Source of the DNA: Planococcus shixiaomingii
Lineage (GTDB): Bacteria; Bacillota; Bacilli; Bacillales_A; Planococcaceae
NCBI RefSeq assembly: GCF_030413615.1
Contig: NZ_CP129236.1
Span: forward strand, 542,001-606,000
DNA: 64,000 bases
Reading direction: 5' to 3'
The notes beneath the pieces were generated by a model. The model was not told the DNA's origin and made no database searches. It was given only the letters and a program-made list of their open reading frames with translations. Position numbers and translations under genes: made by a program. This document shows, piece after piece, positions 5,806 to 27,470 of this stretch (its first letter is position 1; every line of letters starts with the position of its first letter).

Positions 5806-7437
5806 ATGGCAAAAGAGATTAAATTTAGCGAAGATGCACGCAGTTTGATGTTGCGTGGTGTAGATAAATTAGCAGATGCAGTGAAAGTGACACTTGGGCC
5901 AAAAGGGCGCAACGTGGTTCTTGAGAAGAAATTCGGTTCACCGCTAATCACGAACGACGGTGTTACAATTGCTAAAGAAATCGAACTTGAAGACGCGTTT
6001 GAAAACATGGGCGCAAAATTGGTTGCCGAAGTGGCTTCAAAAACAAACGACATCGCCGGTGATGGTACAACAACTGCAACGGTCCTTGCACAAGCAATGA
6101 TCCGTGAAGGCTTGAAAAACGTTACAGCTGGAGCTAACCCAGTCGGCATCCGTCGCGGGATTGAACTTGCAGTAGCATCTGCGGTAAATGAATTAAAAAT
6201 GATTTCAAAAGAAATCGAAGGAAAAGAATCGATTGCACAAGTTGCTGCGATTTCATCTGGAGACGAAGAAGTCGGCAAGTTGATCGCTGAAGCAATGGAG
6301 CGTGTTGGCAACGACGGCGTTATCACTTTGGAAGAATCACGCGGATTCACAACTGAACTTGATGTAGTTGAAGGGATGCAGTTTGACCGCGGTTACCAAT
6401 CTCCATACATGGTGACAGATTCAGAGAAAATGGAAGCTGTCCTTGATAACCCATTCATCTTAGTGACTGACAAGAAAATCAACAACATCCAAGAAATCCT
6501 TCCAATCCTTGAGCAAGTGGTACAACAAAGCAAGCCATTGTTGATCATTGCTGAAGACGTTGAAGGTGAAGCGTTGGCAACTCTAGTTGTGAACAAACTT
6601 CGTGGAACATTCACTGCTGTAGCTGTTAAAGCTCCAGGATTCGGTGACCGCCGCAAAGCAATGCTTGAAGATATCGCGACATTGACTGGTGCTGAAGTAA
6701 TCACTGAAGAACTAGGCCTTGACCTGAAATCAACAAACATCATGCAACTTGGACGCGCATCGAAAGTTGTCGTATCGAAAGAAAACACAACAATCGTTGA
6801 AGGCGCTGGCGACACTGAAAAAATCGTTGCACGCGTTGGCCAAATCCGTAGCCAATTGGAAGAAACAACTTCTGAATTCGACAAAGAAAAACTGCAAGAG
6901 CGCTTAGCGAAACTAGCTGGTGGCGTAGCAGTCATCAAAGTCGGAGCGGCTACTGAAACAGAATTGAAAGAGCGCAAACTTCGCATCGAAGACGCGTTGA
7001 ACTCAACTCGTGCGGCAGTAGAAGAAGGAATCGTAGCTGGTGGTGGTACGGCTCTAGCGAACGTCCACAACCGTGTAGCTGAACTTCTTGAAACAGAAAC
7101 AGGCGACGTTGCAACAGGCGTACGCATCGTTCTACGCGCACTTGAAGAGCCAGTTCGCCAAATCGCGACTAACGCTGGCCTTGAAGGATCTGTCATCGTT
7201 CACCGCTTGAAATCAGAAGAAGCTGGAATCGGCTTCAACGCAGCAAACGGCGAATGGGTAAACATGATGACTGAAGGAATAGTTGACCCAACTAAAGTTA
7301 CGCGTTCAGCACTTCAAAACGCAGCTTCTGTTGCAGCAATGTTCCTGACTACTGAAGCAGTCGTAGCAGACATTCCAGAACCAGCAGCACCAATGGGCGG
7401 AATGCCTGATATGGGCGGCATGGGCGGCATGATGTAA
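5806..7437 (+). CDS. groL: Chaperonin GroEL
   Basis: The 60-kDa ATP-dependent chaperonin subunit, assembling into a double heptameric ring. The 543-residue protein is complete: [18 protein letters not shown], the ATP-binding [16 protein letters not shown] near residue 82, the apical domain, [10 protein letters not shown] near 413, and the Gly-Met tail ending in DMGGMGGMM. It follows groES by 115 bp with GAGGAGG in front. The last codons are the integration target of the 20-kb element to the right. The original groEL 3' end now lies at about 27,440-27,470, reading ...MPPDMGGMM-stop, while the resident tail is element-derived or recombined. Confidence 0.98.
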
Positions 7438-7439
7438 TC
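7420..7439 (+). repeat. attL candidate at the groEL 3' end
   Basis: ATGGGCGGCATGATGTAATC, which includes the groEL stop codon. It differs at one position from the copy at 27451-27470. These are the only obvious duplicated ends of the element. Confidence 0.85.
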
Positions 7440-7491
7440 TAACCATGCAACCCTTGATATAACGGGGTTTGTAGGGGGTAAGATTGTAAAA

Positions 7492-7525
7492 TGCTAACTT
7501 ATTGCTAACTTTCGGGTTCCGAAAC
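7492..7525 (+). repeat. Left-end direct repeats (possible integrase arm sites)
   Basis: TGCTAACTT occurs at 7492-7500 and 7503-7511, followed by GTTCCGAAAC at 7516-7525. The same 9-mer pair and the same 10-mer occur near the right end at 27329-27395. Terminal repeats of this kind are typical arm-type binding sites of tyrosine integrases. Confidence 0.6.
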
Positions 7526-7546
7526 AATAAAATTAAGCTTTTGGGG

Positions 7547-7591
7547 AGACCTTTTGTAAGTTCTTTGAACTTATAGGAGGTCTTCTTTTTT
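7547..7591. terminator. Terminator between groEL and the integrase
   Basis: A stem of about 17 bp (AGACCTTTTGTAAGTTC pairing with its partly wobble-paired complement across a TTT loop) is followed by TTCTTTTTT. It lies inside the element and replaces the displaced groEL terminator now at 27485-27522. Confidence 0.85.
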
Positions 7592-26883: not shown

Positions 26884-27304
26884 AAGAATCACCTACAAAC
26901 TCAATAAACTTTTCGAGACTCTCTTGTTGGTTATCAAGACTTGATTCTAAATCATATTCTTCAATCACATTGCCATTATTGATGTAATAGACTGTATTTA
27001 CATTTGGCATATTGTGACGCAAGGGGTTATTACTTAAGCCATCTTTATTTTCATTAGATGCATCGTTTCGAAAGACATCGAATTGCATAGCCGTTTTTTC
27101 TTTTTCTAAAAATGCTTTTTCGACATGTCTAAGCAGCTGTGACTCTTCTTCATCTTTAATGAGTACAAAGCCAGTTTGGTTACTGTCGAGCATTTCTTGT
27201 ATATCTTCAGTAGAAGCATCAAGCAGGCCATATTCTTCGGTACTACAAGCACCAAGCAAAAATGGTATACTGCAAATGACTAAAATCCGTTTGATCGTTT
27301 TCAT
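26876..27304 (-). CDS. Small lipoprotein of the element
   Basis: A 142-residue protein with a lipoprotein signal: MKTIKRILVICSIPFLLGAC with the lipobox Cys at residue 20. The mature part has a thioredoxin-like feel (LLDASTEDIQEMLDSNQTGFVLIKDEEE...VEKAFLEKEKTAMQFDVFRND), but no CxxC motif is present, so this is only a suggestion. The ATG at 27304 is preferred, 8 nt after GAGGAG; the frame continues upstream without a site. It is translationally coupled to the VirB6-like gene, so it probably works with it at the membrane. Confidence 0.75.
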   Translation of the reverse strand: MKTIKRILVICSIPFLLGACSTEEYGLLDASTEDIQEMLDSNQTGFVLIKDEEESQLLRHVEKAFLEKEKTAMQFDVFRNDASNENKDGLSNNPLRHNMPNVNTVYYINNGNVIEEYDLESSLDNQQESLEKFIEFVGDSYE

Positions 27305-27328
27305 AGAAACACTCCTCAGATTGTGGTT

Positions 27329-27395
27329 TGCTAACTTATTTGCTAACTTATTTTTGAATTCATATGAATCCATATAAGGCAGTTAGTTCCGAAAC
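27329..27395 (+). repeat. Right-end direct repeats (possible integrase arm sites)
   Basis: TGCTAACTT at 27329-27337 and 27341-27349, and GTTCCGAAAC at 27386-27395, mirror the left-end set at 7492-7525 in the same orientation. Confidence 0.6.
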
Positions 27396-27450
27396 CCTTG
27401 AAAGCACTAAGTTTTTACATCCTATGAAAACACAAAATATGCCCCCCGAT

Positions 27451-27470
27451 ATGGGCGGAATGATGTAATC
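27451..27470 (+). repeat. attR candidate with displaced groEL 3' end
   Basis: ATGGGCGGAATGATGTAATC differs at one base from attL. In the frame before it, codons read NMPPDMGGMM-stop, the remnant of the original groEL tail. Confidence 0.85.

Follow-up and report, generated by a model that had tools for sequence, protein, structure and literature searches.

The window analysed here is a stretch of 64,000 nucleotides from Planococcus shixiaomingii (NZ_CP129236.1, positions 542,001 to 606,000). It carries an island of 20.03 kb at the 3' end of groEL, spanning positions 7438-27468 of the window and flanked by an 18 bp core. The original prediction, made from the sequence alone, described an insertion at the groEL stop codon with an integrase at one edge, the displaced groEL terminator at the other and defence genes between them. 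The integrase gene was indeed found at the groEL side, the terminator hairpin at the far side, and type I restriction-modification (RM) genes with a KAP NTPase in the middle. A twin island of 18.58 kb occupies the same groEL place in a second Planococcus genome, G059. The features of the window island are as follows.

7420..7437, + strand: attL core, the last 18 bp of groEL (MGGMM-stop)
7492..7511, + strand: paired direct repeats TGCTAACTT, spacing 11 bp, inside the left end; probable integrase arm sites
7547..7583, no strand assigned: imperfect hairpin (82%) then a T-rich run; candidate element-borne terminator for groEL and the integrase gene (int)
7625..8785, - strand: groEL-type tyrosine integrase, 386 aa (PF00589, Arm-DNA-bind_4; integrase tree)
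8810..9715, - strand: helix-turn-helix (HTH) repressor with a phage-repressor-like N-terminus; 30% identical in the G059 twin
9851..10153, + strand: HTH_17 excisionase-like protein (phrog_66, phrog_9848; Pfam match just under the curated cutoff)
10288..11928, + strand: DUF927 primase/helicase-like protein (PF06048, phrog_8841; Cch1-like below cutoff)
12272..12799, + strand: 175-aa protein with no family match; ratio of nonsynonymous to synonymous substitution rates (dN/dS) 0.12 against G059
13050..13880, + strand: 276-aa hydrophobic protein with no family match
14101..15645, + strand: HsdM, type I methyltransferase
15620..16903, + strand: HsdS, type I specificity subunit
16866..19988, + strand: HsdR, type I restriction subunit
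20035..23958, + strand: KAP-family P-loop NTPase (PifA/QatA-like), probable defence gene (PF07693; PADLOC PifA/QatA)
24126..24368, - strand: ribbon-helix-helix (RHH) protein; a relative is encoded by the gene directly preceding mobP2 on plasmids (48% identity to that of pPS15-1)
24420..24577, - strand: block resembling an origin of transfer (oriT), between the p028 and RHH genes; hairpin 1 at 24474-24488, hairpin 2 at 24452-24473, conserved GAGAAAGAGCATAAGG at 24430-24445
24679..26892, - strand: pLS20_p028-type conjugation membrane protein (p028), 737 aa (NF045890, E 2.6e-131, above the curated cutoff)
26876..27304, - strand: lipoprotein starting MKTIKR...LLGAC, the p028 partner as in plasmid operons (listed open reading frame (ORF) start 27373)
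27327..27350, + strand: direct repeats TTTGCTAACTTA, two copies, inside the far (right) end
27451..27468, + strand: attR core
27485..27522, + strand: displaced original groEL terminator, a perfect hairpin with 19 bp arms, 3' of the far core copy

The predicted 20 bp repeat is present at 7420-7439 and 27451-27470, with a single difference (C/A) at the ninth base. These copies are the only matches within the window at up to 2 mismatches. None was expected in 100 shuffles, which rules out a chance repeat. The common att core is shorter, at 18 bp (ATGGGCGGCATGATGTAA), and encodes the MGGMM-stop end of GroEL. The trailing TC of the longer repeat is unconserved at empty sites and reads GT in the attR of the G059 twin. 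We ran the proposed comparison with related genomes. In three congeners (G010, G001 and G051) the groEL stop runs directly into a similar terminator (GCGCCAACT stem); 226-289 bp further on lies the homologue of the gene at window position 27794 (85-89% identity). GroEL is intact in empty and occupied states, with the C-terminal end GGMGGMM. Insertion at the groEL stop, and repair of the gene by the element, were thus both upheld. Since the integrase uses the 18 bp core, insertion restores the last six groEL codons, with the old terminator now at the far end. The attR sites of the window and G059 share element sequence up to GGGCGG, after which the next base is A in the window and C in G059; the same groEL position is C in nearly all congeners. 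Hence, we infer that the crossover is most simply placed within ATGATGTAA. The paired repeats inside both ends are probably integrase arm sites. By eye, repeat pairs in similar positions, but differing in sequence, are seen in many related loci.

The genome collections hold one genome per species. Clear empty sites were present in three of the 45 congeners and the twin island in one. Of all 46 Planococcus genomes, the window included, three are empty, 14 have an integrase, a remnant or a second core, and 29 were not individually classed. A full integrase of the window's family adjoins groEL in 6 of the 46 (window counted), with remnants in 2. A second core (up to 1 mismatch) lies 2.3-18.6 kb downstream of groEL in 12 of the 45 congeners; six of these have no integrase of the window's family beside groEL, and the origin of the far copy there is unproved. 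Separately, two genomes have further groEL sequence 5-10 kb downstream of groEL: a second groEL tail of 47 aa in G015 (C48:20136-20276) and a groEL pseudogene in G040 (C1:583003-583781). In G020 (L060), the segment from groEL to a second exact core has no window-type integrase and, by eye, seems to hold an operon for sugar utilization (LacI, ABC transporter, glycosidase).

The distal module, comprising the oriT-like block, RHH, p028 and lipoprotein genes, is the new part of the island, overlooked in the original prediction, and suggests how it travels. Plasmid pPS15-1 of P. versutus has the order virD4, a small gene, lipoprotein, p028, further on virB4, and then RHH and mobP2. Of this transfer set the island has the lipoprotein-p028 pair and RHH. 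With the pPS15-1 proteins as queries, MobP2, VirB4 and VirD4 had no match in the islands, which rules out a complete integrative and conjugative element. No relaxase family was seen among the window ORFs in family scans, where two small proteins had no family; in the other islands, the relaxase search covered MobP2.

All 10 mobP2 modules checked have the block upstream of RHH-mobP2 (G048, G002, G055, G012, G196, G166, G110, G122, pKRIBB-KS-1-3 and pEYLC1.1). These modules are eight of ten mobP2 places plus the two plasmids; of the remaining two places, G196:C21 has the block and G068 was left out. Where scored, the hairpin and the RHH start are 107-179 bp apart, and the spacing is similar elsewhere, with pEYLC1.1 as the exception. 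In two Peribacillus loci the block is conserved despite p028 proteins less than 50% identical. We located the 16-mer CCTTATGCTCTTTCTC 30 times, in 23 of 250 Planococcaceae genomes, and a reversed-pattern control once. Hairpin 2, which was not used for sequence choice, pairs in 297 of 366 cells across 46 distinct sequences, with 10 double-change pair types; the maximum in 1000 shuffles was 242, and the register is the best of 10. Hairpin 1 pairs in 268 of 276, a score that is biased because the sequences were picked by a pattern that used hairpin 1, allowing 3 substitutions. We conclude that the block upstream of RHH is very probably an oriT.

Copies of the block also occur as orphans on small plasmids, often two and inverted. 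A blastn search of plasmids at an E limit of 10 gave 53 records, some surely due to chance; of the 30 listed, 12 reached E 1e-5 or lower, mainly small Planococcus plasmids. Inverted copies are carried by the small Planococcus replicons L237, L238, L241, L205 and L207. Three of these (L237, L238 and L241) are annotated plasmids that also encode a replication protein and a tyrosine recombinase or integrase. Such orphan copies would be expected of oriT-only plasmids, and could have another role. The block is not only an RHH operator, because some plasmids carry a copy yet gave no RHH gene.

Among the 250 Planococcaceae genomes, p028 was found in 12. Six of these have transfer genes: four have virB4, virD4 and mobP2, G104 has virB4, and G196 has virD4 and mobP2 on the same contig. 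In the other six, virB4, virD4 and mobP2 gave no match nearby, and a groEL core stood at the lipoprotein side in every case. Adding Peribacillus simplex and Jeotgalibacillus gives eight islands with a common plan: core, int, HTH_17, DUF927, cargo, oriT-like block, p028, core. The hosts are Planococcus, Kurthia, Peribacillus, Jeotgalibacillus and one more genus, in two families. Seven islands measure approximately 15-25 kb; the parts of the Jeotgalibacillus island lie on two contigs and are taken to be linked. In an unrooted tree of 18 p028 proteins, those of the islands fall into two groups (support 0.998 and 1.0) separate from the plasmid proteins. Two Peribacillus loci have related arrangements. 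G266 C33 (L267, L268) has three groEL cores on a 38.9 kb contig with an int-core-p028-RHH junction, a tandem accretion. P. butanolivorans G267 C17, at approximately 1.908 Mb (L269, L171), reads int-core-lipoprotein-p028-RHH, an attP-like order, on a contig without groEL and with a broken integrase. Such tandem and attP-like junctions in relatives give indirect evidence of a circular form.

Defence genes are present in all eight islands, in differing sets. For cargo, 12 of 46 listed ORFs were scanned.

Window: type I RM and KAP NTPase (a homologue, 57%, is in the Jeotgalibacillus island)
G059: type I RM and a SIR2 protein
G116 (Kurthia): type I RM and a DRT-type reverse transcriptase
G182: LlaJI-type enzyme, C5 methylase and AAA protein
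G221: Lamassu LmuA/LmuB
Peribacillus simplex: type IIG RM
Jeotgalibacillus: Gabija GajA with UvrD helicase, and KAP
G132: type I RM, named from tblastn matches

The island middle is, judged by gene content, an exchangeable cargo with predicted defence activity.

Comparison with the G059 twin separates conserved from exchanged parts. The integrase (96%), HsdM (93%), HsdR (95%), DUF927 protein (91%) and p028 (79%) are alike, while the repressor (30%) and HsdS (33%) differ and another gene stands in place of KAP. At the DNA level, the int end is 90% identical, groEL 82% and the sequence before groEL 70%. This pattern suggests that the island moved apart from its hosts. The distal genes are intact in both islands. 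Values of dN/dS were 0.035 for int, 0.08 for RHH, 0.15 for p028 and 0.28 for the lipoprotein, and are rough because dS is high (0.6-1.5).

The front half of the island is of a different kind. Integrase, divergent repressor, excisionase and primase is the gene order of phage-inducible chromosomal islands (PICIs), which are phage satellites. In the window, the integrase, HTH repressor, divergent HTH_17 and DUF927 genes follow this order. Nine island proteins, with the hsd and KAP products outside the scan, gave no structural, lysis or packaging family in PHROGs; a simple prophage is ruled out by the want of structural or lysis families among them. The reading that we favour, at a probability of roughly 0.78, is a relaxase-less integrative mobilizable element of the iOriT type with a phage-satellite-like front half. 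An integrase and flanking att sites are present, and the oriT-like site is common to relaxase-bearing plasmids by sequence and position.

Briefly, transfer would proceed as follows. With a MobP2 conjugative element in the cell, the HTH repressor would let go. The integrase and HTH_17 protein would then excise the island as a circle, which the DUF927 protein may help to replicate. Helper MobP2, together with the island RHH protein, would nick the island oriT, and the helper's pore would move the island. Island p028 and lipoprotein might enter that pore and alter its efficiency or exclusion specificity, as TraG of SGI1 does. By analogy, this pair could do for MobP2 plasmids what SGI1 pore subunits do for IncC, a proposal to which we give a little under even odds. 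Equally tentative is the wider picture of a defence-island family in Bacillota, with a satellite-like integration and replication front and a conjugation-hitchhiker rear. Its copied oriT would steal the MobP2 relaxase and its own p028 and lipoprotein would be swapped into the helper pore, evading exclusion, as a Gram-positive counterpart of SGI1. With the same reserve, the family may be fixed to one hardly varying gene end, the GGMM tail of GroEL. For the spread of restriction and other defence islands between species, a shared oriT-like site and pore genes offer a concrete, testable route. If this route is real, anti-phage defence is carried among Bacillota by conjugation helpers, and Gram-positive bacteria have hitchhikers that remodel the pore as SGI1 does.

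Several observations weigh against this mobilizable-element reading. The module varies: RHH had no match in G132, G221 and G116 (5 of 8 islands have one), and the lipoprotein none in G268 and G269 (6 of 8 have one). The G116 block is altered in its conserved part, and that of G132 was detected only with looser settings. On pEYLC1.1 the block lies approximately 630 bp before the RHH gene, and the two inverted copies common on small Planococcus plasmids may point to another role. Identity between the lipoprotein and that of pPS15-1 is only 20-21%, and the lipoprotein had no plasmid match at 1e-5. Outside the int end, the twins' DNA is 64-86% identical where aligned, partly no more than groEL; the roughness of the dN/dS values counts here too. 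A mobP2 search of the window genome gave nothing at E 1e-20, and no such helper is in sight there; the helper must therefore come from outside. Finally, excision, nicking and transfer are predicted from sequence, and pore remodelling from analogy.

Three other explanations were considered. The island could be a PICI moved in phage particles, its conjugation genes being passengers or an exclusion or defence factor. The front half fits. The best match of the DUF927 protein in a phage collection is PT1028 (29.5% identity), which we take to be like a Staphylococcus aureus pathogenicity island (SaPI), and an S. pasteuri integrase (L167) and one annotated as SaPI (L182) share the branch of the window's integrase. 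Staphylococcal PICIs also use the same site (PMC8125051). However, the nine proteins scanned in PHROGs include no packaging or structural protein, and the four distal features match conjugative plasmids instead; we consider phage-borne movement improbable. Packaging or capsid-interference genes are not required in every PICI. Slightly less improbable, but still unlikely, is an anti-plasmid function for the distal module, in which the lipoprotein and p028 would exclude entry or poison an incoming pore and the block would serve as operator or decoy for plasmid RHH or MobP2. The adjoining cargo is defence, and YddJ, which mediates exclusion in ICEBs1, is a lipoprotein acting on ConG. The ICEBs1 exclusion system is cited in PMC9154091. 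Plasmids that bear the block but yielded no RHH gene speak against an operator alone.

Decay of a conjugative element or plasmid, with a few transfer genes kept by chance, is the least probable of the three and very unlikely. The lipoprotein-p028 pair and RHH gene do look like fragments of a plasmid transfer region, and RHH or the lipoprotein has been lost or replaced in some islands. Yet much the same gene subset is kept in eight islands from two host families, the island p028 proteins fall in their own groups, and the genes are intact in the window and G059 with low dN/dS.

Several known systems resemble the island. According to PMC8125051, the att site of SeCI_SE48 overlaps the last 18 bp of groEL. 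Hence, the groEL site is already published, for a staphylococcal phage satellite with the same 18 bp overlap. SeCI_SE48 and other staphylococcal groEL PICIs share the island's integration site (PMC8125051). The S. pasteuri groEL-site integrase (L167) is in the same branch as the window's and 44% identical to it; the likeness to SeCI_SE48 rests on the site. Staphylococcal PICIs are phage-packaged in that account, whereas our island has no packaging gene among the nine proteins scanned and has the oriT-like, RHH, p028 and lipoprotein end and restriction cargo. SGI1 encodes pore subunits TraN, TraH and TraG, the last 37% identical to the helper's; these enter the IncC pore, where TraG defeats entry exclusion (PMC5389848). 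It integrates at the 3' end of trmE (PMC8409611). Like the island, SGI1 uses the 3' end of a protein-coding gene, a conjugative helper and its own pore subunits, a role that the island's genes would have by analogy. Unlike the island, it belongs to Gammaproteobacteria, a different phylum, and has IncC helpers; the two are likened by description, not sequence. Elements termed iOriT in PMC11389934 are integrated and have an oriT without a relaxase, as in the island's anatomy. The island, whose mobilization is a prediction, goes beyond this type in its RHH gene and two pore genes. MobP2 plasmids pPS15-1 and pKRIBB-KS-1-3 share the oriT-like block before RHH and the lipoprotein-p028 pair, but the island differs in lacking mobP2, virB4, virD4 and a lysozyme-family gene, and in having an integrase. 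Titles and abstract beginnings in the open-access literature gave no groEL-site mobilizable island, or MobP2 oriT, in these genera.

The suggestion that groEL is a shared hotspot was also supported. On the parallel drawn there with the BsuM restriction genes downstream of groEL in B. subtilis, a literature search listed nothing. Six integrases were searched against a species-genome collection (84,980 species), and the best 80 of 320 relatives were kept with flanks of up to 10 kb. In these, groEL was present in 71 of 80 loci. It is convergent with int in 70, at less than 500 bp in 60 and 0.5-4.2 kb in 10 more, and elsewhere in the locus in one (L180). Of nine loci without groEL, seven read from int straight into the core (L171 with one mismatch) and on into other DNA, the pattern of a tandem array; L158 stops at a contig edge and L135 has a degenerate site only. 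Hosts with groEL-adjacent integrases are Bacillales, Staphylococcaceae, Desulfosporosinus, Pelotomaculum, Sedimentibacter and a Negativicutes metagenome-assembled genome; one core-only contig is labelled Pedobacter, perhaps misbinned. By these sequence comparisons, the groEL 3' end is a Bacillota-wide integration hotspot.

A tree built from 90 integrases places all 72 groEL rows, with nine others, in a single 81-row branch (100/99); the groEL label needs 7 changes against 16.8 in shuffles. Three of the nine are labelled non-groEL for want of evidence: L181 is identical to the integrase of Geobacillus phage GBSV1, L158 reaches the contig end and L182 has a Staphylococcus-type core. A purely groEL-specific clade is ruled out because L004, L006, L007 and L008 (35-39% identity), which are not at groEL by position, sit inside the branch on one long branch (1.34). 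The remaining low-identity relatives tested fall outside it. GBSV1 has an exact 18 bp core beside its integrase (L271 770-787), flanked by TTTTGACCACA repeats, and appears to use the groEL 3' end; the phiOH2 integrase row is identical in the tree. The groEL 3' end would thus be a single hotspot common to a phage, phage satellites and mobilizable islands. Two further groEL elements of 15-16 kb, in Planococcus G056 (L055) and G017 (L065), have ORFs resembling tail tape-measure proteins and, by the look of the ORFs alone, are possibly prophage remnants or satellites with tail genes.

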